64,000 nt of DNA, taken from positions 2,318,501-2,382,500 of the forward strand of contig NZ_CP067977.1 in assembly GCF_016656965.1 (NCBI RefSeq), given 5' to 3'. Shown here piece by piece: positions 16,115-57,894 of this stretch. The notes below the pieces were generated by a model, which saw nothing but the letters and a program-made list of their open reading frames with translations, did not search any database and had not been told where the DNA came from. Made by a program: the position numbers and the translations under genes. Source of the stretch: Brevundimonas vitisensis. GTDB taxonomy: Bacteria; Pseudomonadota; Alphaproteobacteria; Caulobacterales; Caulobacteraceae. Each line of letters starts with the position of its first letter. The first letter of the stretch is position 1.

Positions 16115-17281
16115 ATGCGTGCTAAGAACTTCATTCTGGCCTCGGGAGCTGCTGCGGCGCTTCTGATGGCTGCCGGTGCCGCTGCTGCGGAACCGAACGG
16201 CTGGTACGGCGCGATCGACGCTGGCTGGCATGGTGTTGACGACGTCAAGGTCGCCGACGCTGGCTTCAGCGATCTGTGGGAACTGGAAGTCGAAGACGGC
16301 TGGGCCGCTTTCGGACGTCTGGGCTATCGCTTCGACCAGAACTGGCGCGTCGAACTCGAAGGCGGCTATCGCTCGGGTGAAGTGGGCATCTTCACGCGCA
16401 CCCCGACGGGCGCTGGATCCTCGATCTGCTCGCCGGCCACGACCGGCCCGTGCGACACCCCGGAAGGTGACGTCGAATCCTATTCGCTGATGACCAATGT
16501 CATCTACGACTTCGGCGATGCCTCCTGGAGCCTGCGTCCCTTCATCGGCCTGGGTGCCGGTGTGGCCCGCGTGAACACGGACATCGTGGGTTCGCTCGCC
16601 GGCGTTCGCGCCGTCGGCTTCCGCGCTGACGACAGCTCGACCGAACTGGCTGCTCAGGCCATCGCCGGCCTGGGCTGGGCGATCTCGGACCGCGCTCACC
16701 TGGACCTGACCTATCGCTACTTCATGACGGACCTGGAGTTCGACAGCTCGACCACGTCGGTTGTCTATCCGTTCGGCACCTTCGAAGGCGACTATAACGA
16801 GAGCCACGCGATCACGCTGGGCCTGCGCTACGCGTTCGGAGCCGACGCTCCGCCGCCGCCGCCTCCCCCGCCGCCGCCGCCGCCCCCGCCGCCTCCTCCG
16901 CCCCCGCCGCCGCCTCCGCCGCCCCCGCCGCCCCCGGCTCCGGTCCAGGCGCGTCAGTTCGTGGTGTACTTCGACTGGGATCGTTCGGACCTGACGGCCG
17001 AAGCCCGCTCGATCATCACCCAGGCGGCCAACTACGCCAAGTCGGGCCGTCCGACCCGTATCCTGGTCGTCGGCCACGCCGACACCTCGGGTTCGGCCGC
17101 CTATAACGTCGGCCTGTCCAACCGCCGCGCCCGCACCGTTGCGGACGCCCTGGTGGCCCAACAGGTCAACGGCGGCGTGATCTCGCTGGACGCCAAGGGT
17201 GAAACCGCCCTGGCCCGTCCGACGGCTGACGGCGTGCGTGAGCCGCTGAACCGTCGTGCGACCATCGACATCAACTTCTAA
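16115..17281 (+). CDS. OmpA-family outer-membrane protein, paralogue 1
   Basis: 388 residues: a signal peptide cut after about AAA(A) at residue 25, an eight-stranded OmpA-like barrel (about 26-245), a run of 29 prolines (246-274), then an OmpA C-terminal peptidoglycan-binding domain with the VVGHADTSGSAAYN and SNRRART motifs. It anchors the outer membrane to peptidoglycan. From codon 275 onward it is identical in protein to paralogue 2 at 56599-57765, while the barrels are clearly diverged. Its upstream region lacks the EcfG-type promoter seen before paralogue 2. Divergent neighbour: capsule permease kpsM. Confidence 0.95.
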   Translation: MRAKNFILASGAAAALLMAAGAAAAEPNGWYGAIDAGWHGVDDVKVADAGFSDLWELEVEDGWAAFGRLGYRFDQNWRVELEGGYRSGEVGIFTRTPTGAGSSICSPATTGPCDTPEGDVESYSLMTNVIYDFGDASWSLRPFIGLGAGVARVNTDIVGSLAGVRAVGFRADDSSTELAAQAIAGLGWAISDRAHLDLTYRYFMTDLEFDSSTTSVVYPFGTFEGDYNESHAITLGLRYAFGADAPPPPPPPPPPPPPPPPPPPPPPPPPPPPPAPVQARQFVVYFDWDRSDLTAEARSIITQAANYAKSGRPTRILVVGHADTSGSAAYNVGLSNRRARTVADALVAQQVNGGVISLDAKGETALARPTADGVREPLNRRATIDINF

Positions 17282-17295
17282 GACCCTTCGGAGAC

Positions 17296-17340
17296 GGGCC
17301 CGGTCACAAGCCGGGCCCTGATCCCGGGCTTCGGCCCGAA
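17296..17340 (+). other. Two hairpins in the OmpA-1 3' UTR
   Basis: An 8-9 bp stem (17296-17303 with 17311-17318) is followed by a short stem closed by a TTCG tetraloop (about 17325-17338). With the terminator, three hairpins follow the stop codon in a row. The first stem stays paired in copy 2 although two of its bases differ, which suggests selection on RNA structure. Confidence 0.6.
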
Positions 17341-17368
17341 GGTCGGCGAAGTCGTCGAAACAAACATC

Positions 17369-17401
17369 AGCGCCGATCCGGGAAACCGGGTCGGCGCTTT
17401 T
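17369..17401 (+). terminator. Intrinsic terminator of OmpA paralogue 1
   Basis: A 13-bp stem (17369-17381 with 17386-17398) closed by a GAAA tetraloop, followed by a short T run. The same element ends paralogue 2. Confidence 0.9.
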
Positions 17402-17573
17402 GCTGTGGGGCGTGGTCGGAAAGCAGAGCCGCTACGGGAGAGTGTGGAAGGCCGACGCCGTCGCCAGGGTCACAATCGATCCTCACGTCAGGCAAGGCTG
17501 TGCCGACGGGCCGGGCTTGAATGCTGACGCGGATGGCTGCGCCGCTGCGCAACCTCTATGGATCCGGCTTCCG

Positions 17574-17771
17574 CTAGCTCAGACTGGCCTGGATCACGCT
17601 GGGACCGGCAGTACCGCGTTCCCTTATGGCCTCTCCGACGCCGATCACCAGCGAGGCCGTCAGGACGGCGGAGACCAGAGCAATACCGGCCAACCGAAGG
17701 CCGTGTATCAAGTCGCGATGATCTGGACCCACTGCCGCTCCCCCGAGATTCGACAGAAGGACAGTCACCAC
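17574..17771 (-). CDS. Possible small single-span membrane protein
   Basis: A 65-residue frame with a GTG start and no obvious ribosome binding site. It holds one convincing hydrophobic segment (about residues 26-47, rich in Leu, Val, Ala) followed by an Arg/Glu turn. No family is recognised. It could be a true small membrane protein or a chance frame in GC-rich DNA. Confidence 0.25.
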   Translation of the reverse strand: MVTVLLSNLGGAAVGPDHRDLIHGLRLAGIALVSAVLTASLVIGVGEAIRERGTAGPSVIQASLS

Positions 17772-17802
17772 GAGATGAGCGGCATCGCAAGTCGCTGTTC
17801 AC

Positions 17803-17834
17803 TAAAAAACGGGCGGCACCGAAATGCCGCCCGT
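17803..17834 (-). terminator. Intrinsic terminator of the OmpA-type lipoprotein gene
   Basis: A perfect 10-bp stem (17809-17818 with 17825-17834) followed on the minus strand by a run of T (17803-17808). Well placed 24 bases past the stop. Confidence 0.9.
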
Positions 17835-17857
17835 CATTCATTCAGGCTTGTAGGCGC

Positions 17858-18532
17858 TTAGCCGCGGAACGGACGGATGGTGATCTCCACCCGGCGGTTC
17901 TGGGCCTTGCCCGAGGCCGTGGCGTTGGACGCGACCGGCTCGGCCTCGCCGCGCCCTTCGACGTACAGACGGTCGGCCAGAACATTGCGCTGTACCAGAT
18001 AGGACGCAACCGAGGACGCCCGACGCCGCGACAGGTCCAGGTTGTAGGCGTCCGCGCCGTCGGAATCGGCGTGGCCGATGATGTCGATGGTCGACTGATC
18101 GTACTGGTTCAGGACCGCGGCCACATCGTCGAGCACGGCGTAGAAGCCGCCTTCGATGTTGGACTGGTTGCTGGCGAAGGTCACATCCGACGGCATGCGA
18201 AGCACCAGGACGTCGCCCTGACGCGCCACGCCAACGCCGGTGCCGGACAGTTCGGCTTCCAGGGCGCGCTGCTGGCGATCCATGTAGTTGCCCACCGCAC
18301 CACCGGCCAGGGCTCCGATGCCAGCCCCGATCAGGGCGTTCTTGCGGCCTTCTTCGCTGTTGGAGGTGTTGGTCAGATAACCGAGGATCGCCCCGCCCAC
18401 GGCGCCGGCGATCACACCGGTGCCGGTGTTGTTGCGACGCGGGGTCGAGCTGTAGGGGTCGGTCGTGGTGCAGGCGGCCGTGGCCAGCAGGGTGATGACG
18501 CCGGCACTGGCGACGAAAATCTTGGCGCGCAT
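17858..18532 (-). CDS. OmpA-family lipoprotein with glycine-zipper segment (YiaD-like)
   Basis: 224 residues. The signal peptide ends in a plausible lipobox before the cysteine in ATAACTTT (about residue 21). Two Gly-rich zipper helices follow (about 40-85, with GAVGGAILGYL and GAGIGALAGGAVGNYM). The OmpA-like peptidoglycan-binding domain occupies about 110-220, with IIGHADSDGADAYN and SRRRASSV. It probably sits in the outer membrane and binds peptidoglycan. It is preceded by a GGAAC-N16-CGTT promoter, which points to general stress control, and has its own terminator. Confidence 0.92.
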   Translation of the reverse strand: MRAKIFVASAGVITLLATAACTTTDPYSSTPRRNNTGTGVIAGAVGGAILGYLTNTSNSEEGRKNALIGAGIGALAGGAVGNYMDRQQRALEAELSGTGVGVARQGDVLVLRMPSDVTFASNQSNIEGGFYAVLDDVAAVLNQYDQSTIDIIGHADSDGADAYNLDLSRRRASSVASYLVQRNVLADRLYVEGRGEAEPVASNATASGKAQNRRVEITIRPFRG

Positions 18533-18568
18533 GGATATATCCTTCTGATCCGAATGGGTCGGCGCGAA

Positions 18569-18593
18569 AACGCCAGTCTACGGTGAAGGTTCC
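18569..18593 (-). promoter_or_regulatory. EcfG/SigT-type promoter of the OmpA lipoprotein gene
   Basis: On the minus strand GGAAC (18593-18589), 16 bases, then CGTT (18572-18569). This is an exact match to the published alphaproteobacterial general-stress consensus, GGAAC-N16/17-CGTT. The predicted start of transcription leaves a leader of about 30 bases before the ATG at 18532. Confidence 0.75.
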
Positions 18594-18682
18594 TAGCTGT
18601 ATCTGAGATGAACGACGCGGGTTTGCCAAGATCGGGGCCCACAACGTAAAAGCCGACCCTGATCAAGCCAAAGGCCAAGTCC

Positions 18683-19654
18683 GTGAATCCTGTCCCGTCA
18701 TCCGTTCCTGCTTCTTCAGGTCGCGCCATCGAGCCGGTTTCGATGCGGCTGTATGACGAGGATTTTCAGGGCTTCAGCGACGCCCTCGGGTCGTCATTCC
18801 GGCGCTACGGCTTTGCGGTGGTCGCCGATCATGGGCTGGATGAAGCCGTCATCGAGGCTGCCATCGACGATGCCAAGGCCTTCTTCGCCCTGCCCGAGGC
18901 CGTCAAGCGGGCCTATCATGTGCCGGGGATCGGTGGGGCACGTGGCCTGACGCCCTTCGGGATCGAGGCGGCCAAGGATGCCGCGGCCGTCGATCTGAAG
19001 GAGTTCTGGCACGTCGGGCGCGAACTCCCGGCTGGCCATCCCTACCGCCAGTATATGCGCGACAATGTGTGGCCCACCGAGATCGAGGGCTTCCGCACCC
19101 ACCTCTACGGCATGTTCCAGGCGATGGATGACCTAGGGCGCAAGCTGCTGCGGGCCATCGCGCGGGCATTGGGGCTGTCCGACGACTGGTTCGAGGACAA
19201 GGTCGATATGGGCAACAGCGTCCTGCGGATGCTGCACTATCCGCCGGTTCCGGCTGATGCCCCCGGTGTCCGGGCCGGCGCGCATGAGGACATCAATGTC
19301 ATCACCCTTCTGCTCGGCGCGGAGGAGGCGGGGCTGCAGCTGAAGGATGCCGATGGGCGCTGGCTGGATATCGCTCCGCCGCCGGGCGCATTGGTGGTCA
19401 ATATCGGCGACATGCTGCAGCGGCTGACCAATCATGTCCTGCCGTCGACGACGCACCGCGTGGTCAATCCGGCGCCGGAACGGCGCGGTTTCGCGCGCTA
19501 TTCGACGCCCTTCTTCCTGCACTTCAATCCGGATTTCGAGATCGCGACCCTGCCGTCGACGATCACGCCCGACCGGCCGGACCGCTATGCCGGGCAGTCG
19601 ATCACGGCGGAGGAGTTCCTGTTGCAGCGGCTGCGGGAAATCCGCCTGCTCTAG
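18683..19654 (+). CDS. 2-oxoglutarate/Fe(II) oxygenase, isopenicillin-N-synthase-like
   Basis: 323 residues. An N-terminal DIOX_N domain (about 15-130) precedes a double-stranded beta-helix domain with the iron-binding HED (HxD) near residue 198, the distal His in TTHRVVNP near 258, and the co-substrate RYS motif near 272. Such enzymes hydroxylate or oxidise small molecules; bacterial homologues near housekeeping genes have mostly unknown substrates. Start chosen at 18683. It converges on the VWA protein with four bases between stops. Confidence 0.9.
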   Translation: MNPVPSSVPASSGRAIEPVSMRLYDEDFQGFSDALGSSFRRYGFAVVADHGLDEAVIEAAIDDAKAFFALPEAVKRAYHVPGIGGARGLTPFGIEAAKDAAAVDLKEFWHVGRELPAGHPYRQYMRDNVWPTEIEGFRTHLYGMFQAMDDLGRKLLRAIARALGLSDDWFEDKVDMGNSVLRMLHYPPVPADAPGVRAGAHEDINVITLLLGAEEAGLQLKDADGRWLDIAPPPGALVVNIGDMLQRLTNHVLPSTTHRVVNPAPERRGFARYSTPFFLHFNPDFEIATLPSTITPDRPDRYAGQSITAEEFLLQRLREIRLL

Positions 19655-19658
19655 ACGC

Positions 19659-21494
19659 CTACTTCGAGATCCGCAGCCGGGTGATGTCGCGGCCGATGGC
19701 CTGGAAGGCGGCGGACAGGTCGGTGCCGCTGTTGGGCATATAGACGTGATTGGCCGAGGTCGCGCACTCGTTGACGATCGCCCGCGCGCGCGGGTCGTCG
19801 ACCACCTGGAACCCGACCGTATAGACGATGACGCCTGATCCCTTCATGGAGGCGCACAGGGCCAGGGTCTGGTCGAAGGGGTGGCCGTTCGGCGCATTGC
19901 AGTTGATCTGCACCTCGCGCGAGCCGGAGCCATTGGTCGAGTCCTGGGCGATGACGCCGTTGCAATAGCCGCTGTTGTATTCGCCGTCCGTCATGATGAC
20001 GACAGCCTTTAGGACCTCAAGCGGGTTGTAGGGACCGGCCGCATTGGACGGCCACAGGGACGCGAAGTTCGGGGAGACCGTGTACCAGCCCCAGCCCACC
20101 CCGATGTGACCGGCTGTGGAGCCCGATGCGGTCAGGCCATTGATACGGCTCTTGATCGTGGTGCGGTTGCTGCTGAGCGGCAGGATGGTGTTGGGCAGGC
20201 ACGGGTTGCTGGACGACGGATAGTTGCGGCCCAGTCGCGCCGAGCCCGGAGAAGCGTCGGTATAGGCATTGGTGCCGTGCCGCTCGGTCACGCAGGTGCT
20301 GATCTGCTGGGTCACCAGGGTGCCGTAGGGGTTGAAGAAGGCGTAGTAGGTGCAGCCGGCCTGGGCGCACCACGACCGGCCGCCGCTGGAGTAGTTGTCC
20401 CAGTTGGCCCCGTTCACGCCGATCGAATAGGTATTGGTCGTGACGTCACTGACCCGATAGGTCCGGTCGTTGATCTGGGTCATGCCGCTGACATTGGTGA
20501 TGCGGACATATTGGTTGTTGGACAGGCCGTGGCTGTTGGCTGTGACCACTACCGAGCAGTCGTCGACCTGACATTTCCGGATCGTGCCGCCCGAGCTGTA
20601 GTTGTTCCAGTTGGAGCTCGAGACGCCGGACAGGGTGAATGTGTTTGTCGCTCGGTTCGAGACCACATAGGCGCGGTTATTGACCTGGGTCATGCCGCTG
20701 ACGCCGTTGATCCAGACGACGTCACCGTTCTGGAAGCCGTGGTTGTTGGAGGTGATACGGGCGGGGTTGTTGCGGGTAATGTTGCTGATCGACTTCGACG
20801 AGCCCGTCGACCAGGAGGCTCCGGTGATATTGGCCGAGCCGATGATGGAGCCGCGGGCGTTGGTGGCATAGGAGTCGACGTTGACGGCCATCGAATAGGG
20901 CACCACCGACACCTTGGAATAATAGGGTGACTGCTGGTCCTGAACCACGATGTCGACCAGGTCTGAGGCGGCGGCGCGCAGATCGATGATCTTCTGGCCC
21001 TGCATCGAGCCGGTGGTGTCGAGCACCAGAGCGACCTCGACGTTCTTGGACGACCGGTTGACCTCCGAATGGGCCCCGACCGGGATATACTCGTCCATGA
21101 ACTGCCCGTAGGGCGGCAGGAAGATGTGGGCGACCAGGGTCTTCACATCGACTTTGGCGTCGGCGATGACGACGTCGTTTTCATCCAGACTGAAGCGGGT
21201 GTCGCCGGTGCGCAGCGTGATCTGGGGGTAGGCCTTCAGGTTCGCTTCGAGCGAGGCCATGCCGACCCGGTTGATGTCGACGTCCTCGGTATAGGATGAT
21301 CGGGCCGCAGCCAGGGTGGCGGCGTCCAGGGCGTCCTGAAGATTGACGCGCACGGTTGAGGCCCGGTGGATGTCCACGCCGCCCACCGTCATCAGGATTA
21401 ATACGGGCAGGCTCAGGGCAAACATCATGGCGATGTTGCCGCGAGTGTCGCGCGCAAAGCGCCGCGCCGCATGGGTCCAGGTCAACAGGCTCAT
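19659..21494 (-). CDS. TadG-like pilus-assembly/VWA protein with two inserted tandem repeats
   Basis: 611 residues from the ATG at 21494 (MSLLTWTH). Residues about 10-45 are a TadE/TadG-type N-terminus (DTRGNIAMMFALSLPVL, one membrane helix). A von Willebrand A domain starts near 150 with the MIDAS motif DTTGSMQG and ends near the C-terminus (VIMTDGEYNSG, YTVGFQV). Two ~70-residue tandem repeats (about 233-372, each ending in NNYSSGG or DNYSSGG) are inserted inside the VWA fold. Their HGFxNGDxVxIxxVSGMTQxN pattern resembles domains often labelled FCCH-like in phage tail proteins. No other tad genes are nearby. Confidence 0.88.
   Translation of the reverse strand: MSLLTWTHAARRFARDTRGNIAMMFALSLPVLILMTVGGVDIHRASTVRVNLQDALDAATLAAARSSYTEDVDINRVGMASLEANLKAYPQITLRTGDTRFSLDENDVVIADAKVDVKTLVAHIFLPPYGQFMDEYIPVGAHSEVNRSSKNVEVALVLDTTGSMQGQKIIDLRAAASDLVDIVVQDQQSPYYSKVSVVPYSMAVNVDSYATNARGSIIGSANITGASWSTGSSKSISNITRNNPARITSNNHGFQNGDVVWINGVSGMTQVNNRAYVVSNRATNTFTLSGVSSSNWNNYSSGGTIRKCQVDDCSVVVTANSHGLSNNQYVRITNVSGMTQINDRTYRVSDVTTNTYSIGVNGANWDNYSSGGRSWCAQAGCTYYAFFNPYGTLVTQQISTCVTERHGTNAYTDASPGSARLGRNYPSSSNPCLPNTILPLSSNRTTIKSRINGLTASGSTAGHIGVGWGWYTVSPNFASLWPSNAAGPYNPLEVLKAVVIMTDGEYNSGYCNGVIAQDSTNGSGSREVQINCNAPNGHPFDQTLALCASMKGSGVIVYTVGFQVVDDPRARAIVNECATSANHVYMPNSGTDLSAAFQAIGRDITRLRISK
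20380..20800 (-). repeat. Two tandem ~70-codon repeats inside the VWA domain
   Basis: Two copies share HG(F/L), SGMTQ(V/I)N(N/D)R, and W(N/D)NYSSGG. They interrupt the von Willebrand A fold between its second and third core strands. Confidence 0.8.
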
Positions 21495-21599
21495 ACCGAT
21501 CCGCTCATCCCGACGCCGGGCGCAACTGTGCCGACATCTCATGCCGGCATGATGGCGTGGGCCGGTTAAGGGATCGGCCAAGACGCAGGGTTAACGGAA

Positions 21600-21632
21600 C
21601 CTCGCCCCCCTCCGCATGGGCGGGGGGCGAGG
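21600..21632 (-). terminator. Hairpin downstream of the M2 peptidase gene
   Basis: An 11-bp perfect GC stem (21600-21610 with 21622-21632), eight bases past the stop, without a strong U-tract. Confidence 0.6.
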
Positions 21633-21639
21633 TAGCGCG

Positions 21640-23523: not shown

Positions 23524-23618
23524 CAGGGTCTCCTGTACGCAGGCCGGGCGATGCGCCCCGGACCTCGTTCGTGGGCCGCACAGGATGTGACGGCGAAGCG
23601 TCCGTCAAGCGCCGCGGT

Positions 23619-24317: not shown

Positions 24318-24354
24318 GGATGGATGATGGCCCCCTGGACCGGGCGGAGCAAGA

Positions 24355-27130: not shown

Positions 27131-27199
27131 GGGCCTCATCTAGGGGGTGCCGAGAGCGAGTGCCAGTGGGCGTGCCAGTGAGCGAGGGATGAGACAGGC

Positions 27200-35231: not shown

Positions 35232-36281
35232 CTAGCCCGCGACCATGCTCATGTCGCGGCGGGCCATCAATTTGTCGAACTCGCCCCAGACGCCGTCGGC
35301 GCCGTGCCATGAGCCCTGGGTTGCCGCCTTGGAGTATTCGGTCGCGCGGGCCTCGAAGAAGTTGGCGTGTTCAACTCCGCTGAGCAGCGACTGCAGCCAG
35401 GGCAGGGGGTTTTCCTTGACGCCATACACCTCGGGCAGGTGCAGTTGGCGCAGGCGCCAGTCGGCGATGAAGCGGATGTACTGCTTGATGTCGTCGGGCG
35501 TCATGCCGCTGACCTCGCCGGCCTCGAAGGCCAGGTCGATGAACTTGTCTTCCAGCCCGACCACGGTGCGGCAGCATTCGACGATATCGTCGGCGACGGA
35601 CGGGGTGACGCAGCCCGTTTCCTTGTTGAAGGCGTGGTACAGCTTGATGATGCCGTCGCAGTGCAGGCTCTCGTCGCGCACCGACCAGGACACAATCTGG
35701 CCCATGCCCTTCATCTTGTTCTGACGCGGGAAGTTCATCAGCATGGCGAAGCTGGCGAACAGCTGCAGCCCCTCTGTGAAGCCGCCGAACATGGCCAGGG
35801 TCCGCGCGATATCGGCGTCGGTGTCCACCCCGAAACGGCCCATGTAGTCGTGCTTGTCCCGCATGGCCTCGTATTCCATGAAGGCCCCGAACTCGCTCTC
35901 GGGCATGCCGATGGTTTCCAGCAGCAGGGCATAGGCCGCGATGTGGATCGTCTCCATGTTGGCGAAGGACGACAGCATCATCTTCACCTCGGTCGGTTTG
36001 AACACCCGACCGTATTTTTCCATGTAGTTGTCGGCGACCTCGATGTCCGACTGGGTGAAGAAGCGGAAGATCTGCGTCAGCAGATTGCGCTCCTTGTCAT
36101 TCAGGTTTGCCGCCCAGTCCTTGCAGTCCTCGCCCAGCGGCACCTCTTCGGGCATCCAGTGGACCTGCTGCTGCTTTTTCCACATGTCGAACGCCCACGG
36201 ATAGCGGAACGGCTTGTAGGCGGCCGACGGGGTCAGCAGGCCGGGACGCTCGGCGCGGATGATGGGCGTGTGAATGGTCAT
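35232..36281 (-). CDS. nrdB: Class I ribonucleotide reductase, small subunit
   Basis: 349 residues from the ATG at 36281 (MTIHTPI). The di-iron ligands are visible: Asp in QSDIEVADN, EXXH in METIH, and EXXH in RDESLH. A tyrosine four residues after the first His (ETIHIAAY) matches the radical Tyr122 of E. coli R2. The long C-terminal tail for NrdA binding is present. It lies 5.4 kb from nrdA and in opposite orientation. An NrdR-like box lies upstream. Confidence 0.95.
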   Translation of the reverse strand: MTIHTPIIRAERPGLLTPSAAYKPFRYPWAFDMWKKQQQVHWMPEEVPLGEDCKDWAANLNDKERNLLTQIFRFFTQSDIEVADNYMEKYGRVFKPTEVKMMLSSFANMETIHIAAYALLLETIGMPESEFGAFMEYEAMRDKHDYMGRFGVDTDADIARTLAMFGGFTEGLQLFASFAMLMNFPRQNKMKGMGQIVSWSVRDESLHCDGIIKLYHAFNKETGCVTPSVADDIVECCRTVVGLEDKFIDLAFEAGEVSGMTPDDIKQYIRFIADWRLRQLHLPEVYGVKENPLPWLQSLLSGVEHANFFEARATEYSKAATQGSWHGADGVWGEFDKLMARRDMSMVAG

Positions 36282-41658: not shown

Positions 41659-43554
41659 ATGGCTGGTGTCGAAGCGTTGAAGACGGCGGAATTCCAGGCG
41701 GTTGCGTCCGGGACGGTCTCCGACCGACCCCAGCTGAAGGTCGTGCCGTCCATCGTTTTGGACCGGTCGCGCGACGAGCTGCTGACCGCCTTCGGCAAAA
41801 AGACGCTGGAAGACCGCTATCTCCTTCCGGGCGAAAGCTATCAGGACATGTTCGCCCGGGTCGCCACCGCCTACGCCGACGATGAAGCGGTGAATCCGGG
41901 CCATGCCCAGCGCGTCTATGACTATATGTCCAAGCTGTGGTTCATGCCCTCGACGCCGGTGCTGTCGAACGGCGGGGCCGATCGCGGTCTGCCGATCAGC
42001 TGTTTCCTGAATGCCGTCGGCGACAGCCTGGACGGCATCCAATCGGTCTGGAACGAGAACGTTTCACTGGCCTCCAACGGCGGCGGCATCGGCACCTATT
42101 GGGGCAGCGTCCGGTCGATCGGCGAGAAGGTCAAGGGCGCAGGCCAGACCAGCGGCATCATCCCCTTCATCCGCGTGATGGACAGCCTGACGCTGGCGAT
42201 CAGCCAGGGCAGCCTGCGGCGCGGCTCCGCGGCCGTCTACCTGGACGTGCATCACCCCGAGATCGAGGAGTTTCTGGAAATCCGGAAGCCCTCGGGCGAC
42301 TTCAACCGCAAGTCCCTGAACCTGCACCACGGCATCAACATCACCGACGAGTTCATGGAGGCGGTGAAGGCGGGCACGACCTTCGGCCTGCGTTCGCCCA
42401 AGAACCAGGAAGTGCTGAAGACGGTCGATGCGCGCAGCCTGTGGCAGAAGATCCTGGAAATCCGGCTGCAGACCGGAGAGCCCTATCTGATCTTCTCGGA
42501 CACGGTGAACCGGCAGATGCCGCAGCACCAGCGGGACCTGGGCCTGAAGGTGAAGCAGTCGAACCTGTGCAGCGAGATCATGCTGCACACCGGCCGTGAC
42601 CACCTGGGCATCGACCGCACGGCCGTCTGCTGCCTGTCGTCGGTCAATGCCGAAATGTTCCTGGAATGGCGCGAGGAGCCGCGCTTCGTCGAGGACCTGA
42701 TGCGGTTCCTGGACAATGTGCTGGAAGACTTCATCACCCGCGCCCCGCCGTCGATGTCGGCGGCCGTCTATTCCGCACGCCGCGAGCGGTCGGTGGGCCT
42801 GGGCCTGATGGGCTTCCACTCCTTCCTCCAGGCCCAGGGCGTGGCTTTTGAATCGGCCATGGCCAAGTCGTGGAACATGCGGCTGTTCAAACACCTGCGC
42901 CGCGAGGCCGACAAGGCCAGCCGCCTGCTGGCCGAGGAAAAGGGCCCGTGCGAGGATGCGGCCGAGCGTGGCGTGATGGAGCGGTTCAGCCACAAGCTGG
43001 CCATCGCCCCGACCGCCTCCATCAGCATCATCTGCGGTGGTACCAGCGCGGGGATCGAGCCGATCCCGGCCAATATCTATACCCACAAGACCCTGTCGGG
43101 CTCGTTCGCCGTCAAGAACCCCTTCCTGGAGCGACTGCTGGAAGAGAAGGGGCTGAACACCGACGCGACCTGGTCCTCCATTCTGGAGAAAGAGGGCTCG
43201 GTCCAGCACCTGGACAGCCTGACCGAGGACGAAAAGGCGATCTACAAGACCGCCTTCGAACTGGATCAGCGCTGGGTGGTCGAACTGGCCGCCGACCGGA
43301 CGCCGGAAATCTGTCAGGCGCAGTCGATCAACCTGTTCATCCCCGGCGATGTGAACAAGTGGGACCTGCACATGCTGCACTGGACGGCGTGGGAGCGGGG
43401 CGTGAAGTCGCTGTATTACCTGCGCTCCAAGTCGGTTCAGCGCGCCGCCTTCGCCGGCAGCGAGGACAAGGCAGAGACCGAGGTCGATCCGAACCAGCCC
43501 GACCTGTTCAGCGCTGCCCGCACCGACTACGACGAGTGCCTGGCCTGCCAGTAG
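41659..43554 (+). CDS. nrdA: Class I ribonucleotide reductase, large subunit
   Basis: 631 residues. Catalytic-domain motifs include PSTPVLSNGG, NLCSEI, and the C-terminal redox pair CLAC near the end (YDECLACQ). The N-terminus (about 1-50) lacks the ATP-cone found in E. coli NrdA, so overall-activity control by dATP at this subunit is absent. It reduces ribonucleotides together with NrdB, encoded 5.4 kb away on the other strand. Two NrdR-type boxes with 31-base spacing lie before it. Confidence 0.96.
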   Translation: MAGVEALKTAEFQAVASGTVSDRPQLKVVPSIVLDRSRDELLTAFGKKTLEDRYLLPGESYQDMFARVATAYADDEAVNPGHAQRVYDYMSKLWFMPSTPVLSNGGADRGLPISCFLNAVGDSLDGIQSVWNENVSLASNGGGIGTYWGSVRSIGEKVKGAGQTSGIIPFIRVMDSLTLAISQGSLRRGSAAVYLDVHHPEIEEFLEIRKPSGDFNRKSLNLHHGINITDEFMEAVKAGTTFGLRSPKNQEVLKTVDARSLWQKILEIRLQTGEPYLIFSDTVNRQMPQHQRDLGLKVKQSNLCSEIMLHTGRDHLGIDRTAVCCLSSVNAEMFLEWREEPRFVEDLMRFLDNVLEDFITRAPPSMSAAVYSARRERSVGLGLMGFHSFLQAQGVAFESAMAKSWNMRLFKHLRREADKASRLLAEEKGPCEDAAERGVMERFSHKLAIAPTASISIICGGTSAGIEPIPANIYTHKTLSGSFAVKNPFLERLLEEKGLNTDATWSSILEKEGSVQHLDSLTEDEKAIYKTAFELDQRWVVELAADRTPEICQAQSINLFIPGDVNKWDLHMLHWTAWERGVKSLYYLRSKSVQRAAFAGSEDKAETEVDPNQPDLFSAARTDYDECLACQ

Positions 43555-49996: not shown

Positions 49997-50776
49997 ATGA
50001 CCGTCCACGCCGGAAGCCTGACCCATATCCTGCCACCGCCGCCGATCGAGACCTTGCGGCGTCCGGCGCTGTTTCTGGATATGGACGGTGTGTTGGCTCC
50101 GCTGGCCCCGCATCCCGACGACGTGGTGCCGGTGGCGCGACGGACGGCGGTGCTCAAACAGCTGATCCAGCGACTGGACGGCCGGGTAGCGATCGTCAGT
50201 GGACGGACGTTGGCGGAGATCGACAGGATCAGCGATGGGGCGGCCCAAGCTGCCTCGGGCGTGCATGGACTGGAGCGACGCGGCGCCGACGGGGTTTCGG
50301 TGCGGGACGAAGCCGATCCGGCGGTGAAACAGGCCGTGGCGGCCTTCAACGCCTTCGCAGCCGAACGGCCGGGCGTTGTCGTAGAGGACAAGGGCGTGGC
50401 CGCCGGACTGCATTACCGCAGGGCACCCGACCAAGGTGGTGCGGCTCAGGCCTTGGCCAGTGAGATCGCCGACCGGACGGGACTGGTGCTGCAGCCGGGC
50501 TCGATGGTGCTGGAGTTGAAGACGCCCGGCACCGACAAGGGCACGGCGGTGACGGCCTTCATGGATCAGCCGCCGTTCAAGGGGGCATTCCCCATCATGG
50601 TCGGCGACGACCTGACCGACGAGCATGGCTTTGCTGCGGCGACGGCGTTGGGTGGGTTCGGCGTCCTGGTCGGCCCGCCGCGCGAGACGGCGGCACGCTA
50701 CGGCCTGGCCGATGTCGACGCCGTCCTGGATTGGCTGGAGGCCGTGGCGGCGTCCGTTTCGGAGACCCCTGCATGA
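49997..50776 (+). CDS. otsB: Trehalose-6-phosphate phosphatase
   Basis: 259 residues of the HAD type: FLDMDGVLAPL near residue 26, IVSGRTLAEI near 64, and the metal-site VGDDLTDEHGF near 200. It releases trehalose from trehalose-6-phosphate. First of the otsB-GH15-otsA operon; its stop overlaps the GH15 start (ATGA). Confidence 0.95.
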   Translation: MTVHAGSLTHILPPPPIETLRRPALFLDMDGVLAPLAPHPDDVVPVARRTAVLKQLIQRLDGRVAIVSGRTLAEIDRISDGAAQAASGVHGLERRGADGVSVRDEADPAVKQAVAAFNAFAAERPGVVVEDKGVAAGLHYRRAPDQGGAAQALASEIADRTGLVLQPGSMVLELKTPGTDKGTAVTAFMDQPPFKGAFPIMVGDDLTDEHGFAAATALGGFGVLVGPPRETAARYGLADVDAVLDWLEAVAASVSETPA

Positions 50777-52557
50777 CCCAGACACTGGATCTGTTCCCCA
50801 TCGGCAACTGCGCTGTCAGCGCGCTGATCGACCGGACTGGCCGCTTCGTCTGGGCCTGCGCCCCGCGCGTGGACGGCGATCCGGTCTTTTCGGCTCTGAT
50901 GGACGGCGATACCCCGGAACACGGATTCTGGGCCATCGAGCTGGAGGGGCTCTCCAATGTCGATCAGGCCTATATCCGCAACACGCCCGTGCTGCGGACC
51001 GTTCTGACGGCCGAAGACGGAGCATCGATCGAGATCATCGACTTCGCGCCGCGCCATGCCAAGAATTCGCGGACCTATCGGCCTCTGGCGTTCAGCCGGA
51101 TCGTGCGTCCCCTGGCCGGAGCGCCACGGATCCGGGTTCGCCTGCGTCCTGCCGCAGACTGGGGCGCGCGCCGGGCCCCGACCACGGCGGGATCCAACCA
51201 CATCCGCTATGTTTGTCCCGAGGTCACCTTCCGGCTAACGACCGACTGTCCGGTGTCGCATGTCACAAGCGAGCGGACCTTCCGGCTGGAGCGGCCCCTG
51301 GCCTTCTTCTTTGGACCGGACGAGGGTTACGATCAGGCGGTCGGGGCGGGGGTCCAGGCGGCCCTGGATCGCACGGTCGACTACTGGCAGCAGTGGGTGC
51401 GGACCCTCTATCTGCCGCTTGATTGGCAAGAGGCGGTGATCCGGGCGGCCATCACCCTGAAACTGTGTGCCTATGAGGAGACGGGGGCCATCGTCGCGGC
51501 CATGACGACCTCGGTGCCCGAATTCCCCGAGAGCGGTCGCAACTGGGACTATCGCTACTGCTGGATCCGGGACGCCTATTACACGGTGCGGGCTCTGAAC
51601 CGGCTGGGCGCGGTCGATATCCTGGAGAACTACCTCGTCTATCTGCGCAATCTCGTGGACGACTCGGCGGGCGGCCATGTTCAGCCCGTCTATGGCGTGG
51701 GTCTGGAGGAGGACATCGACGAGCGGATCGTGACGTCAGTCGCCGGCTATCGCGGGATGAAGCCGGTCCGGGTGGGAAATCAGGCGCGCGAGCATCTGCA
51801 GCACGACGTCTATGGCCAGATCGTGCTGCCGCTGGTTCAGGCCTTCTATGACCACCGGCTGCTGCGCCCCGGATCCATCGAGGATTTCCATGCCCTGGAG
51901 AAGGTCGGAGACCGGGCCTTTGCCATGCACGACCAGGTCGATGCCGGCCTGTGGGAGTTCCGCACGATCGCGCGCGTGCACACCTATTCATCCGTGATGT
52001 GCTGGGCGGCCTGCGACCGGCTGGCCAAGGCGGCGGACCACATCGGCCTGGGACACCGGGCCGAGTTCTGGCGGGAGCGGGCTGCAATCATCCGTGCCCG
52101 GATCGAGAAGGAGGCCTTCTTGCCAGAAGAAGGGCGTTTCGCGGCCAGCTTCGGGGGGCAGGAGCTGGACGCCTCGCTGCTGCAGCTCACCGACCTGGGC
52201 TTTCTGGACGTCCGCGATCCCCGCCAGGTCGCGACATTCGATGCGGTGGAGCGCGACCTGAAGAAGGGAGCCTATCTGTTCCGCTATATCGAGGCGGATG
52301 ACTTCGGCGAGCCGGAGACGGCGTTCAACTTCTGTACCTTCTGGTTCATCGAAGCCCTGGCGCTGAACGGGCGAACCGAAGAGGCGAGGGTGATCTTCGA
52401 GGACATGCTGAGCCGCCGGACGTCGGCGGGCCTGCTGAGCGAGGACATCTCGATCGAGGACGGCCAACTGTGGGGCAACTATCCCCAGACCTACTCGCTG
52501 GTCGGGATCATCAACTGTGCTGTGCTGCTCAGCCGGTCCTGGACGGATGCGCGCTAG
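50773..52557 (+). CDS. GH15 family glycoside hydrolase (trehalase/glucoamylase type)
   Basis: 594 residues from the ATG at 50773. The N-terminal beta-sandwich (about 1-215) is followed by an (alpha/alpha)6 barrel with NWDYRYCWIRDAYY near 257, the acid-base region DAGLWEFRTIARVHTY near 392, and NYPQTYSLVGIIN at the end. Bacterial GH15 members with this layout include trehalases. Lying between otsB and otsA, coupled to otsB, it could degrade the trehalose made by its neighbours or act on a related glucoside. Confidence 0.9.
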   Translation: MTQTLDLFPIGNCAVSALIDRTGRFVWACAPRVDGDPVFSALMDGDTPEHGFWAIELEGLSNVDQAYIRNTPVLRTVLTAEDGASIEIIDFAPRHAKNSRTYRPLAFSRIVRPLAGAPRIRVRLRPAADWGARRAPTTAGSNHIRYVCPEVTFRLTTDCPVSHVTSERTFRLERPLAFFFGPDEGYDQAVGAGVQAALDRTVDYWQQWVRTLYLPLDWQEAVIRAAITLKLCAYEETGAIVAAMTTSVPEFPESGRNWDYRYCWIRDAYYTVRALNRLGAVDILENYLVYLRNLVDDSAGGHVQPVYGVGLEEDIDERIVTSVAGYRGMKPVRVGNQAREHLQHDVYGQIVLPLVQAFYDHRLLRPGSIEDFHALEKVGDRAFAMHDQVDAGLWEFRTIARVHTYSSVMCWAACDRLAKAADHIGLGHRAEFWRERAAIIRARIEKEAFLPEEGRFAASFGGQELDASLLQLTDLGFLDVRDPRQVATFDAVERDLKKGAYLFRYIEADDFGEPETAFNFCTFWFIEALALNGRTEEARVIFEDMLSRRTSAGLLSEDISIEDGQLWGNYPQTYSLVGIINCAVLLSRSWTDAR

Positions 52558-52611
52558 GGCGGTTCACGAAAGCGTTATGCCACCTTTTTGCCATCAAGGC
52601 GTTGCGACGGC

Positions 52612-54042
52612 ATGAGCCGTCTTATCGTCGTATCGAACCGTGTCTCCGCCCCCAAGGATCCTGCTGCCGGCTCTGCCGGTGGGCTGGCCATGGCCCTGTC
52701 CGCAGCCCTGCGGACCTATGATGGATTATGGTTCGGCTGGTCCGGCGAGACGATCGAGACCTTCACCGGCGAAGCCAAGATCGAGGACCGGGCGGGCGTC
52801 ACGGTGGCGCTGGTCGATCTGGAGCCGCAGGACGTCGACGAATATTACAACGGCTATGCCAACAAGACGCTTTGGCCGCTGTTTCATCATCGACTGGACC
52901 TGACAGCCTATGAGCGGTCCTACGGCGAAGGGTATGAGCGGGTGAACCAGCGGTTCGCCGAGGTTCTGGCCCCCATGCTGGAACCGGACGACATCATCTG
53001 GGTGCACGACTACCACCTGATCCCGATGGCGCGCGATCTGCGCCGGCTGGGCGTGACCAATCGGATCGGCTTTTTCCTGCATACGCCGTGGCCGGTGCGT
53101 CAGCTTCTGGTGACCCTGCCGCATCATCGCCGACTGGTGGAATCGCTGTTCGCCTATGACCTGATCGGTTTCCAGACCGAGGAATGGCTGGATCTGTTCC
53201 GCGACTACGTCATCTCCGAAGCCCGCGGCGAGCTGGCGGGGGACAATGGGCTGGAGGCCTTTGGCCGCAAGGTCTGTGTCGGGGTCTATCCGATCGGCAT
53301 CGATGTCGAAGACTTCATGGGCGCGCGAGATTCACCTGCGGGTCTGCGGACCTATGACCGGATGGCTGCCTCGTCTGCCTTCCGCTCGATGATGGTCGGG
53401 GTTGACCGGCTGGACTACTCCAAGGGTCTGGAAGAGCGGATGCTGGGCTACGAGCAGTTCCTGCATGACAATGCGGAACTGCGCGGCGATGTCTTCCTGG
53501 TCCAGGTGACGCCGATCAGCCGCGATGACGTGGACACCTATCAGGACATCCGCGCGCGGCTGGATGCCCTGGCGGGCCGGATCAACGGCGAATATGCCGA
53601 CATGGACTGGCAACCGATCCGCTATCTGAACCGGGGCTATCGACGCGATCAGCTGGCGGGCATCTATCGCGCCGCACGTGTGGGGCTGGTGACGCCGCTG
53701 CGTGACGGCATGAATCTGGTGGCCAAGGAATATGTCGCCGCTCAGAACCCGGACGATCCGGGCGTTCTGATCCTGTCGCGCTTTGCCGGCGCGGCGGAAC
53801 AGATGGGCGAGGCGCTGCTGGTCAATCCGTTCAGCCGCGAAGAACTGTCGGACGCCATCAAGACGGCCCTGACCATGCCGCGTGAGGAACGCATCCGCAA
53901 ATGGACTGCCCTGATGAAGGTGGTGCGCGATACTGACGTGGCCATCTGGCGCGACGACTTCGTGCAGGCGTTGCGGTCGATAGAGGTTGCAGACGACGGC
54001 GACCGCCCGCTCCACCATCAACCGCGCGCAGACGCGGCCTGA
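52612..54042 (+). CDS. otsA: Trehalose-6-phosphate synthase
   Basis: 476 residues from the ATG at 52612 (MSRLIVVSNRVS), a GT20 enzyme. Motifs include SAGGLAMAL for the UDP-glucose loop, WVHDYHLIPMARDLR near 125, GVDRLDYSKGLEER near 262, and LRDGMNLVAKEYVAAQ near 360. It joins UDP-glucose and glucose-6-P. The intergenic distance from GH15 is 54 bases. Confidence 0.96.
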   Translation: MSRLIVVSNRVSAPKDPAAGSAGGLAMALSAALRTYDGLWFGWSGETIETFTGEAKIEDRAGVTVALVDLEPQDVDEYYNGYANKTLWPLFHHRLDLTAYERSYGEGYERVNQRFAEVLAPMLEPDDIIWVHDYHLIPMARDLRRLGVTNRIGFFLHTPWPVRQLLVTLPHHRRLVESLFAYDLIGFQTEEWLDLFRDYVISEARGELAGDNGLEAFGRKVCVGVYPIGIDVEDFMGARDSPAGLRTYDRMAASSAFRSMMVGVDRLDYSKGLEERMLGYEQFLHDNAELRGDVFLVQVTPISRDDVDTYQDIRARLDALAGRINGEYADMDWQPIRYLNRGYRRDQLAGIYRAARVGLVTPLRDGMNLVAKEYVAAQNPDDPGVLILSRFAGAAEQMGEALLVNPFSREELSDAIKTALTMPREERIRKWTALMKVVRDTDVAIWRDDFVQALRSIEVADDGDRPLHHQPRADAA

Positions 54043-54049
54043 GCCAAGG

Positions 54050-54078
54050 GGCCCGTTCCATCATCCATGGAACGGGCC
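54050..54078. terminator. Bidirectional terminator between otsA and the thiolase gene
   Basis: An 11-bp perfect stem (54050-54060 with 54068-54078), 7-base loop, between convergent genes. Confidence 0.65.
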
Positions 54079-54084
54079 TGAACT

Positions 54085-55287
54085 TTAGAAGATTTCGAAC
54101 AGTCCGGCCGCACCCATACCGCCGCCGACGCACATGGTGACCACGCCGTATTTGGCACCGCGCCGCTTGCCCTCGATCAGGACATGGCCAGCCATCCGTG
54201 CACCGCTCATGCCGTAGGGGTGACCGATCGAGATGGCCCCGCCCGACACGTTCAGCCGGTCCATCGGAATACCCAGGGTGTCGGCGCAATAGAGCACCTG
54301 GACCGCAAAGGCCTCGTTCAGCTCCCAGATGCCGATGTCGTCGACCGTCAGGCCGTGACGCTTCAGAAGTTTGGGCACGGCATAGACGGGGCCGATGCCC
54401 ATTTCGTCGGGCTCGCAGCCGGCCACGGCCATGCCGCGATAGGCACCCAGCGGCTGCAAGCCGCGCTTCACCGCCTCGCCGGCCTCCATGATGACCGATG
54501 CGGATGCCCCGTCCGACAGCTGGGACGCATTGCCGGCGGTGATGAACTCCCCCTGCTGGATCTCCTCGCCGCCGCCGAAAACGGGCTTCAGCGACTGCAG
54601 GCCCTCCAGTGTCGTTTCGGGGCGGTTGCCCTCGTCCTTGGACAGGGTGATTTCCTTGGAGGAGGTCTGCCCCGTCGCCTTGTCCGCCACCAGCATGGTC
54701 GTGGTCATCGGCACGATCTCGGCATCCAGACGGCCTTCAGCCTGGGCCTGGGCCGTACGCTGCTGCGATTGCAGCGCGTATTCGTCCTGGCGGTCCCGCG
54801 AAATGCCATAGCGACGCGCCACCACCTCGGCGGTTTCCAGCATGGACATATAGATATGAGGCGACAGCTGCAGCAGCGCCTCATCCTTCATGCGGTACAG
54901 GTTCATATGCTGGTTCTGGACCAGGGAAATGGACTCCAGGCCGCCGCCGACCGCCATCTTCTGTTGATCGAAAACCACCTGTTTGGCGGCGGTGGCGATG
55001 CCCATCAGGCCGGAAGCGCACTGACGGTCCAGGCTCATGCCCGGCACCGATGCGGGCAGGCCGGCGGCCAGGGCGATCTGGCGAGCGACATTGGTGCCGG
55101 TTGCGCCCTGTTGCAGAGCCGCGCCCATGACCACGTCCTCGATCTCGGCAGGGTCGACGCCTGCGCGGGCGACCGCGTGCCGGACGGCATGGGCCCCCAG
55201 TTGCTGGGCAGCAGTATCGTTGAAGGCTCCGCGATAGGCGCGCCCGATCGGGGTGCGAGCAGTGGAGACGATGACGGCTTCACGCAT
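54085..55287 (-). CDS. Acetyl-CoA C-acyltransferase (thiolase)
   Basis: 400 residues. The nucleophile region is LDRQCASGL near residue 90, the His motif [12 protein letters not shown] near 350, and the second Cys [12 protein letters not shown] near 380. It could act in beta-oxidation or in acetoacetyl-CoA synthesis. The SDR downstream of the thiolase promoter region, encoded upstream on the same strand, resembles fatty-acid multifunctional-enzyme dehydrogenases, which favours the first role. Confidence 0.92.
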
Positions 55288-55426
55288 GGTATCCTCCTTG
55301 GGGGCTGTCGGGCCTCTGCCCGACTTCAGCCTGGTTTTCTCTGGATCGGTCTAGGCTGCTGCCGCAGGGTAAAGACAAGAGCCCGGCGCACGTCGCCGAA
55401 GGTGGCAAGCCCCGCAGCCGGCAACA

Positions 55427-56341
55427 TCAGCTGCCGCTGAAGCTCTTGGCCTTGGTGAGTTCGACCATGCCCTGGGCTGCGCCCATTTCCGGGATGATCT
55501 CTCCGGTTCGGTCCGAAATGGCGTCGATGCGGGCTGCGACCTGTTCGGGCGCGTCCGGTCCGGTGATGAACTCGCCCTGGGTCAGGGTGACATAGGCGCG
55601 CTCGAACCCGCCGGCACCGGCCGCCAGGATGCAGCGGCTGGGCGCGTTCTCGCTGACCAGATACAGAAGGCCGGGCGTCACCATGTCGGGACCCAGCAGT
55701 TCCAGCGGCAGAGCAGCCCCCAGGTCCTCGGTCATGCGGGTGTGCGCGGTGGGAGCCAGGCAGTTGACGCGGACGTCGTTCTTGGCCCCCTCGATCGACA
55801 GGGTCTGCATCAGGCCGACCAGGGCCATCTTGGCCGCGCCGTAATTCGACTGGCCGAAATTGCCATACAGTCCAGAAGAAGACGTGGTCATCACGATCCG
55901 GCCGTAGTTCTGGGCCCGCATGATGTCCCAGACCGCCTTGGTGCAGTTGACCGCGCCCATCAGGTGGACATCGACGACGAAGCGGAAGTCATCCAGCGAC
56001 ATCTTGGCGAAGGTCTTGTCGCGCAGCACCCCGGCATTGTTCACCAGAATGTCGATCCGGCCCCATTTGGCCATGACCTCGGCCACCATGGCCTCGACGG
56101 CAGCAAAATCAGTCACGGACGCGCCATTGGCCATGGCTTCGCCGCCGGCGCCCTCGATCTCGGCTACGACCTGCTGGGCCGGGGTGGCGGACGATCCCTC
56201 TCCATCGCGGGCAACCCCAAGGTCATTGACCACGACCTTTGCCCCGCGTGCTGCCAGCGCCAGCGCGTGCTCACGGCCAAGGCCGCCCCCGGCGCCCGTC
56301 ACGATCGCCACCCGTCCGTCGAACCGCATCGTCATCTTCAT
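55427..56341 (-). CDS. SDR dehydrogenase, 17-beta-HSD4/multifunctional-enzyme type
   Basis: 304 residues. TGAGGGLGREHA near residue 16, NNAGVLRDKTF near 100, and the catalytic YGAAK near 168, with the longer C-terminal region of the 3-hydroxyacyl-CoA dehydrogenase part of peroxisomal MFE-2. It probably oxidises a 3-hydroxyacyl-CoA, and lies upstream of a thiolase gene on the same strand (139 bases apart). Confidence 0.88.
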   Translation of the reverse strand: MKMTMRFDGRVAIVTGAGGGLGREHALALAARGAKVVVNDLGVARDGEGSSATPAQQVVAEIEGAGGEAMANGASVTDFAAVEAMVAEVMAKWGRIDILVNNAGVLRDKTFAKMSLDDFRFVVDVHLMGAVNCTKAVWDIMRAQNYGRIVMTTSSSGLYGNFGQSNYGAAKMALVGLMQTLSIEGAKNDVRVNCLAPTAHTRMTEDLGAALPLELLGPDMVTPGLLYLVSENAPSRCILAAGAGGFERAYVTLTQGEFITGPDAPEQVAARIDAISDRTGEIIPEMGAAQGMVELTKAKSFSGS

Positions 56342-56508
56342 GTCTCCCTTGGACTTCCATTGCTCCTAGAGCCTGGCTGGAAAAAGGGGAATCCTTGGAC
56401 CGGCGGAAAACAGATCGATCGAATGGGCGTTGGTAGGGGGTAAGTTGGCCCGCCCCCGCAGATCGTGTTGAAATGGCGCCACAGTTGCCACAATCCGGTT
56501 GGATGAGC

Positions 56509-56533
56509 GGAACCGCACAGAGGGCAGGCCGTT
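56509..56533 (+). promoter_or_regulatory. EcfG/SigT-type promoter of OmpA paralogue 2
   Basis: GGAAC (56509-56513), 16 bases, CGTT (56530-56533), an exact general-stress consensus. The ATG is at 56599, giving a leader near 60 bases. Confidence 0.7.
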
Positions 56534-56598
56534 CGGGCATTCGACGGCTGAGCGCAAGCTTTGCCATCTGGGCATTTCAACTGAGTAATGAGGATACG

Positions 56599-57765
56599 AT
56601 GAAGCTGAAACTTCTCGCCAGCGTCGCGACCGTGGGCCTGTTGGCCGCCGGCGCCGCCGCGGCTGAACCGAACGGCTGGTACGGCGCTGTCGATGCCGGC
56701 TGGCACACCGTCAACGACGTGACCTTCGACAGCGAAGGCACCGGTGGTGCCAGCTGGGAAGTCGAAGTCGAGGACGGCTGGGCCGCCTTCGCCCGCCTGG
56801 GCTACCGGTTCAACCCGAACTGGCGCGCCGAACTCGAGGGCGGTTACCGCTCGGGCGAGCTGGGCAACTTCCAGCGCACGGCCCCGTCGGCGGCCAACAT
56901 CTGTGCCCCGATCGCGACCGGTGCCTGCGATGTGCCGGACGGTGACATGGAAGTCGCCTCGCTGATGGCCAATGTCATCTATGACTTCGGCGATGCCTCC
57001 TGGACCCTGCGTCCCTTCATCGGCCTGGGTGTCGGTGTGGCCCGCGTGAACACCGACTTCGTCGGCACGCTCAGCAACGCCGGTGCTGCCCGCACGACCA
57101 GCATTGCCGCCGACGACAGCTCGACCGAGCTGGCCGGTCAGGCCATCGCCGGTCTGGCCTGGGCGATCAGCGATCGCGCCAACGTCGACCTGACCTACCG
57201 CTACTTCGCCACGACGGCCGATTTCGACACCTTCACGTCGAACGCCGGTCTGGCCCAGGGCAACTTCGACGGTGACTATAACGAAAGCCACGCGGTGACG
57301 CTGGGCCTGCGTTATGCCTTCGGTGCGGCTGACGCCCCGCCGCCGCCGCCCCCGCCGCCGCCGCCGCCCCCGCCGCCTCCTCCGCCCCCGCCGCCTCCTC
57401 CGCCGCCGCCGCCGCCTCCGGCTCCGGTCCAGGCGCGTCAGTTCGTGGTGTACTTCGACTGGGATCGCTCGGACCTGACGGCCGAAGCCCGCTCGATCAT
57501 CACCCAGGCGGCCAACTACGCCAAGTCGGGCCGTCCGACCCGTATCCTGGTCGTCGGCCACGCCGACACCTCGGGTTCGGCCGCCTATAACGTCGGCCTG
57601 TCCAACCGCCGCGCCCGCACCGTTGCGGACGCCCTGGTGGCCCAACAGGTCAACGGCGGCGTGATCTCGCTGGACGCCAAGGGTGAAACCGCCCTGGCCC
57701 GTCCGACGGCTGACGGCGTGCGTGAGCCGCTGAACCGTCGTGCGACCATCGACATCAACTTCTAA
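56599..57765 (+). CDS. OmpA-family outer-membrane protein, paralogue 2
   Basis: 388 residues from the ATG at 56599, the same length as paralogue 1. Signal peptide (cut after about residue 23), eight-stranded barrel (about 24-246), 28 prolines (247-274), and an OmpA C-terminal domain identical in protein to that of paralogue 1. The barrel loops differ. It is preceded by an EcfG-type promoter, so the two paralogues are probably expressed under different conditions. The capsule gene kpsS follows 220 bases downstream. Confidence 0.95.
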   Translation: MKLKLLASVATVGLLAAGAAAAEPNGWYGAVDAGWHTVNDVTFDSEGTGGASWEVEVEDGWAAFARLGYRFNPNWRAELEGGYRSGELGNFQRTAPSAANICAPIATGACDVPDGDMEVASLMANVIYDFGDASWTLRPFIGLGVGVARVNTDFVGTLSNAGAARTTSIAADDSSTELAGQAIAGLAWAISDRANVDLTYRYFATTADFDTFTSNAGLAQGNFDGDYNESHAVTLGLRYAFGAADAPPPPPPPPPPPPPPPPPPPPPPPPPPPPAPVQARQFVVYFDWDRSDLTAEARSIITQAANYAKSGRPTRILVVGHADTSGSAAYNVGLSNRRARTVADALVAQQVNGGVISLDAKGETALARPTADGVREPLNRRATIDINF

Positions 57766-57894
57766 GACCCTTCGGAGACGGGCCTGGTCACAAACCGGGC
57801 CCTGATCCCGGGCTTCGGCCCAAAGGTCGGCGAAGTTGTCGAAACAAACATCAGCGCCGATCCGGGAAACCGGGTCGGCGCTTTTGCTGTGGGG
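57421..57894 (+). repeat. 474-bp near-identical direct repeat, copy 2
   Basis: Partner of 16937-17410, in the same orientation and 40,484 bases apart, with five substitutions and no gaps by eye. Confidence 0.92.
57853..57885 (+). terminator. Intrinsic terminator of OmpA paralogue 2
   Basis: Same 13-bp stem with GAAA loop as in copy 1 (57853-57865 with 57870-57882), followed by T. Confidence 0.9.

Follow-up and report, generated by a model that had tools for sequence, protein, structure and literature searches.

Recurrent gene conversion as the very probable cause of 3' identity between two old ompA loci in Brevundimonas

Brevundimonas vitisensis carries two paralogous ompA genes in direct orientation (copies A and B; Table 1) in the stretch of DNA analysed here, hereafter the window (64,000 nucleotides; contig NZ_CP067977.1, positions 2,318,501 to 2,382,500). 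Both encode a beta-barrel joined by a polyproline linker to a C-terminal OmpA domain, and they raise the question of how two loci some 40 kb apart can be nearly identical in their 3' halves, non-coding tail included, when most of the barrel-encoding part has diverged. An earlier note on this DNA, made from the sequence alone, had proposed either gene conversion with an edge at the proline repeat or a chimeric duplication. Our results support the former: A and B are very probably ompA loci of long standing between which recombination occurs, and recurrent gene conversion (concerted evolution) accounts for the pattern of identity between the copies, for the contrast at synonymous sites, and for the relationships of the two loci across the genus.

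Alignment of positions 16937-17410 with 57421-57894 covers 474 columns, with five mismatches (16984, 17301, 17310, 17338, and 17353) and no gaps, in agreement with the earlier count made by eye over the same block, tail and terminator included. The mismatch at 16984 is coding and synonymous, while the remaining four lie in the 3' non-coding tail. At an offset of 40484 the match runs on upstream to 16853, with mismatches only at 16864, 16912, 16924, and 16933, so that the start previously placed at 16937 was conservative; the shared tract probably takes in the polyproline codons from their 5' edge onward. Similarity between A and B ends abruptly beyond 17410, directly 3' of a terminator-like hairpin. 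The longest exact run in the tract is 316 bp, and at the mismatch rate of the barrel (133/666) the probability of observing five or fewer differences in 474 positions is 3e-38. In the single-contig genome of 2,976,716 bases, the 474-bp block has just two matches (40 of the 82 first-look candidates were scored).

Synonymous divergence, which the earlier note had suggested comparing across the polyproline boundary, gives a sharp contrast. Only 1 of 76 fourfold-degenerate sites differs between A and B in the C-terminal 345 bases; for the mature barrel, the count is 25 of 81 (Fisher test, 1.4e-7). When A is compared with the nearest other A gene, the corresponding values are 18/73 for the C-terminal part and 26/78 for the barrel. 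Thus, the two barrels are separated by roughly a between-species distance, and the 3' halves are not. The 3' non-coding tail is identical at 125 of 130 positions between A and B, and is visibly different in the other species inspected.

That the barrels are clearly different, as the earlier note had it, holds for most of their length and fails over one near-identical patch (Table 1). In 90-column windows, A and B reach an identity of 0.94 over 16490-16579, where identity to any of the other 72 barrels is at most 0.81. The patch contains 5 differences in 97 positions, and 1 of its 18 fourfold sites differs versus 24 of 63 in the remaining barrel; it may be read as a separate, short conversion. 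We also placed the A-B differences on a predicted structure of A that shows barrel-like strands and is of moderate confidence (mean pLDDT of 70.9 for the kept model; five models, 42.0-70.9; 17 sequences). Differences affect 26 of 59 non-strand and 42 of 159 strand residues (Fisher test, 0.014), and would thus be modestly denser outside the strands.

Both loci are found across the genus. Protein A has matches at E<=1e-10 in 97 of the 101 genus genomes searched (its own included), and a DNA search of 131 genus genomes returned matches at E<=1e-100 in 76, the single-contig genomes among these mostly having two. Another collection yielded 56 matching loci, mostly from Brevundimonas and some from metagenome-assembled genomes of Caulobacterales or Alphaproteobacteria. 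At the family level, a search of 60 genomes, 6 of which belong to the genus, gave matches at E<=1e-30 in 49; other genera commonly have one full-length match, and some have two. Where the full start is present (some rows start at an internal Met), signal peptides fall into an A type (MRVKSLILASS... or MKTFVLASS...) and a B type (MKLKLLASVA...). These two types at two loci, together with upstream genes common to the B loci, indicate an old, shared duplication. As side observations, one genome (G057; G, L, and C numbers are our handles for genomes, loci, and contigs) has seven matches, several as tandem pairs, with about 53-64% identity to A (L182-L184), and a third OmpA paralogue, whose C-terminal part shows 83% DNA identity to the query, occurs in G044 (L037) and G113 (L175).

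We handled 47 genomes, the window's own included, with one genome per species in the collection. One copy was fetched from G100 and from G073, and two copies were sought in the other 45. Eight of these were not parsed for both copies, six at the frame search (G028, G085, G075, G108, G118, and G122) and two for want of a GWYG motif (G087 and G111), which left 37. In G028 (L090-L092), there are stops within the A match and a run of unknown residues around ompA. Within-genome identity of the barrels is at least 0.94 in 25 of the 37 genomes and below 0.90 in 12, and identity of the C-terminal 345 bases is at least 0.95 in 29. Wherever barrel identity falls below 0.90, the C-terminal part is more alike than the barrel. 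The two copies of a genome are mutual nearest neighbours in 24/37 cases for the barrel and 25/37 for the C-terminal part (the window pair in both), and are sisters in the tree in 28/37 and 27/37 cases, respectively. The earlier note held that conversion would not be needed if other species showed the same identity pattern by vertical descent; instead, in most of the 37 genomes the pairs are most alike within the genome, barrels included. A mostly escaped barrel combined with a homogenised C-terminal domain is found in the window and in G101, G036, and G001.

Several observations weigh against recurrent conversion, or limit its reach. Paralogues fail to be mutual nearest neighbours in 13/37 genomes for the barrel and in 12/37 for the C-terminal part (off-register slices of G097 and G106 account for two of the latter, and the others stand), so that conversion is not constant. 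Several genomes, such as G091 (barrel 0.961, C-terminal part 0.927), G130, G020, and G008, show greater likeness in the barrel, which makes the pattern of the window one among several. In G085 and G118, which carry inverted copies, the copies are just 91-92% alike over the block. With a single genome per species, no strain-level conversion event was seen. Finally, outside the patch the barrel of the window offers little support for recent exchange, the A-B identity of 0.701 being only marginally above the best value with another species (0.696), although A and B remain paired in the tree (support 0.987). Pairing across species also occurs, for instance between the C-terminal parts of G020 and G091 and between the B barrels of G039 and G105.

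The rival explanations each account for part of this evidence. A recent chimeric duplication, in which one copy was newly made by placing a duplicated ompA 3' half beside another barrel, would produce the sharp edges of identity seen at both ends of the tract. However, both loci occur genus-wide with their own signal peptides, and the upstream neighbours of B are constant in most of the genomes examined; we therefore reject this alternative of the earlier note, which appears very improbable. The C-terminal domain could also be kept alike without any exchange, by strong purifying selection or codon constraint, and it is true that the C-terminal part of the window is nearer to the genes of other species (0.884) than its barrel is (0.71). 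The fourfold sites nevertheless rule out constraint alone as the cause of the 3' identity, as the within-genome difference is far below that to the nearest other A gene, and the non-coding tail, alike within the genome and different elsewhere, tells against it too; we give this explanation hardly any credence.

Equally implausible is horizontal import from outside, replacing the 3' half in both copies. In its favour, the barrels of some species are nearest to genes of other species (G101 B to G008 A, 0.886; G105 B to G039 B, 0.985), which suggests that import may have occurred at the barrel in some species where it has escaped homogenisation. For the 3' half of the window, however, two imports with identical edges and an identical source would be needed, and no gene in the 36 other genomes exceeds an identity of 0.884 to the C-terminal parts. 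No source for the barrel of the window was found among these genomes either. Separately, the B copies of G039 and G105 (L065 and L179), with A-B barrel identities of 0.86-0.87 within each genome, look like carriers of a shared barrel allele.

Under recurrent conversion, non-crossover events would repeatedly copy the mature-protein part between the loci, while promoter, signal peptide, and surroundings would remain separate. The ends of the tracts fit this expectation. When the 150 bases before the mature part are divided into 30-column bins, each of the first five has at least 9 differences in all 37 pairs, and in strongly homogenised pairs identity sets in at the last codons of the signal peptide. 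On the 3' side of the stop codon, identity ends at varied distances, from 0 to about 2 kb. Promoters and signal peptides are thus kept distinct, and the mature protein is often common to both loci. Comparison of whole loci in 13 chosen genomes revealed homogenised blocks of 1159 bp at 100% (G043), 1221 bp at 99.9% (G049), and 3187 bp at 99.94% (G060), the last including the neighbouring capsule-family gene N1. N1 adjoins both ompA copies in G060 (L070, L071), G079 (L074, L075), and G118 (L169, L170); it lies in the homogenised stretch in G060 and in G079 (99.4% over 1792 bp), and the stretch in G118 is 92% alike. A breakpoint always falling in the polyproline codons was considered and rejected, because similarity rises before the linker in G101, G001, and G121. 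We saw no clear relation between copy orientation and degree of homogenisation by reading, without a statistical test.

In the species of the window, the last fixed event would have run from the polyproline codons to the terminator, with another of about 97 bp in the barrel; most of the barrel has probably diverged too far for easy conversion, which would block longer tracts. The pathway would be homologous recombination of the RecA type. The tails in a selection of other species were too different to point to either locus as the donor. As the earlier note stated, nrdA and nrdB lie between the copies, each being the only match in the genome (Table 1). The same note pointed out that recombination between the direct copies could delete or duplicate the interval; no trace of either was found in the single-contig assembly. 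A crossover between the direct copies would remove both genes, a loss that should be lethal, so that just non-crossover outcomes would be expected to persist.

Crossovers are suggested instead in relatives with inverted copies, from the genes that flank the loci (flanks M, N, and U in Table 1). We compared 4 kb around each copy, and up to 20 kb in a few cases. Of the 46 B loci, 33 have the short-chain dehydrogenase gene of U, and 37 the thiolase gene, in the 4 kb upstream; no A locus has either (the A and B labels of G085 had been swapped because of the U genes, before these counts). G069, G043, G087, and G075 have only a further upstream gene (OtsA type), and G049 and G111 have none of the three. 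The upstream side of A is variable: in the window it consists of Kps/Bex-type polysaccharide export-like genes (below curated cut-offs), which have matches at loci of 2 other genomes. Downstream, M genes adjoin one of the ompA copies in many relatives.

Flank states were assigned by hand in 41 of the 46 tree genomes (G025, G028, G100, G015, and G111 were left out), ignoring N1, which is on both or on exchanged flanks in G053, G060, G079, G118, and G092. In 31 of the 41 genomes, the window included, M lies downstream of A and N downstream of B; the other 10 show the reverse. On a tree of nrdA and two flank genes (iqtree), accounting for the flank states takes 4 changes, and the midpoint root has the common state; the sisters G122 and G085 (bootstrap 95) differ in state, as does G092 from the other members of its clade, G079, G060, and G118 (99). 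Among the exchanged genomes, the copies are inverted on one contig in five, direct in four, and on separate contigs in one. Conversely, inverted copies on one contig are found in 10 genomes, 5 exchanged and 5 not, and direct copies on one contig in 22 scored genomes, with 4 exchanged, all in one clade. As a crossover between inverted copies inverts the intervening segment and yields exactly such an exchange of downstream flanks, these data suggest inversion by crossover within the ompA block in relatives with inverted copies. For the four direct, exchanged genomes, a further rearrangement must be assumed.

A wider proposal, which we put forward tentatively and consider rather doubtful as a whole, gives the ompA pair, in some members of the genus, the role of a recombination joint that is used repeatedly. 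Inverted copies would be kept alike by conversion over 1.2-3.2 kb (99.4-99.9% in G053, G060, G079, and G092, with the lower values already given for G085 and G118), crossover would repeatedly flip an arc of about 0.6-1.1 Mb (G122 versus G085; G092 versus G079, G060, and G118), and escape of the barrel, as in the window, would leave two surface variants on one anchor domain.

Profile matches place A and B in the OmpA family, outside the 'porin OmpA' equivalog. PF13505 (N-terminal outer-membrane beta-barrel) is above its cut-off in both, and PF00691 matches residues 285-379 with 63.6 and 63.5 bits in A and B, respectively, so that peptidoglycan binding is predicted. In this family, the OmpA domain ties the outer membrane to peptidoglycan. 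The NCBI equivalog NF008071, with a cut-off of 277, is not reached by either protein (51.8 and 67.9 bits). Elsewhere in the window, positions 6703-10872 encode a large serralysin-type metalloprotease (NF035945, barely above cut-off) with RTX-like calcium-binding repeats, close to the polysaccharide export-like genes (13908-15902).

Table 1. Positions of the two ompA copies, their shared tracts, and neighbouring genes in the window
Feature	Position	Strand	Basis
ompA copy A, 388 aa, with A-type signal peptide, barrel and polyproline linker, and a predicted peptidoglycan-binding OmpA domain	16115..17281	+	Translation; PF13505, PF00691
ompA copy B, 388 aa: B-type signal peptide, layout as in A	56599..57765	+	Translation; PF13505, PF00691
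Probable recent conversion tract in A, from the polyproline codons through C-terminal domain and stop to the 3' tail with its terminator-like hairpin	16853..17410	+	9 mismatches in 558 at offset 40484
Probable recent conversion tract in B, counterpart of that in A	57337..57894	+	Same alignment
Putative second, short conversion patch in barrel of A	16486..16582	+	5 differences in 97
Counterpart of the barrel patch in B, offset 40475	56961..57057	+	A-B alignment
Terminator-like hairpin and T run 3' of A (twin at 57854-57886)	17370..17402	+	By eye
nrdA, between the copies	41659..43554	+	PF02867/PF00317; sole genome match at E<=1e-200
nrdB (profile match), between the copies	35406..36218	-	PF00268, 254.9 bits; sole family match in genome
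Downstream flank of A (M): OmpA/glycine-zipper gene 17858-18532 (-), 2OG-Fe(II) oxygenase 18683-19654 (+)	17858..19654		Pfam
Downstream flank of B (N): capsule-synthesis-family gene, peptide methionine sulfoxide reductase, TonB-dependent receptor	57985..62788	+	Pfam
Upstream flank of B (U): short-chain dehydrogenase and acyl-CoA thiolase	54085..56341	-	Profile matches

Comparable systems have been described. In Helicobacter pylori, the 3' segment of homA/homB clusters by strain (concerted evolution, ascribed to gene conversion) and the 5' segment diverges (PMC2795765); the same source cites babA/babB as behaving likewise. The Brevundimonas pair resembles homA/homB in consisting of two outer-membrane protein loci with a homogenised 3' and a divergent 5' segment. 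However, homA/homB and babA/babB encode host-adherence proteins compared within one species, whereas the present pair encodes OmpA proteins with a polyproline linker compared across the species of a genus; unlike in homA/homB, the tract extends to the terminator, and flanks are exchanged in relatives. Long-lasting concerted evolution in prokaryotes, in which paralogues of one species are more similar to each other than to those of other species, even at synonymous sites, is reported in PMC6053082, where outer membrane protein genes are given as frequent short-term cases. Our pair shares with those cases the greater within-species similarity, synonymous sites included; the main text of that report contains no mention of OmpA, porin, or Caulobacter, and most of its genes (22 of 26) code for components of stable complexes. 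Caulobacter, from the same bacterial family, likewise has two OmpA homologues, a likeness drawn without assigning orthology to A or B; OmpA2, the only one called highly abundant, is needed for outer-membrane stability (PMC12164514). Judged by title and opening of the abstract, none of the papers listed in a limited search of the open-licence literature concerns this Brevundimonas ompA pair. The pair is a well-supported instance, and a new one, of a process of known type, as in homA/homB, flank exchange being its less usual part.

The repeat has practical consequences. At least 25 protein A matches in genus genomes start within 100 bases of the first base of a contig, and draft assemblies of this genus often break at the ompA repeat. 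In G011 (contig C42, 196715-197995), an A-type barrel faces a B-type barrel tail to tail across 10 bases, an arrangement probably due to misassembly at the repeat. In this genus, ompA is also a poor species marker.

For the biology of Brevundimonas, one duplicated outer-membrane gene pair displays, genus-wide, two results of recombination: the mature-protein part is converted and the regulatory ends are held apart, and flanks are exchanged. Two promoters serving one mature product would allow separate control of one abundant protein and, where the barrel escapes, the cell may display two surface variants on one anchor domain.

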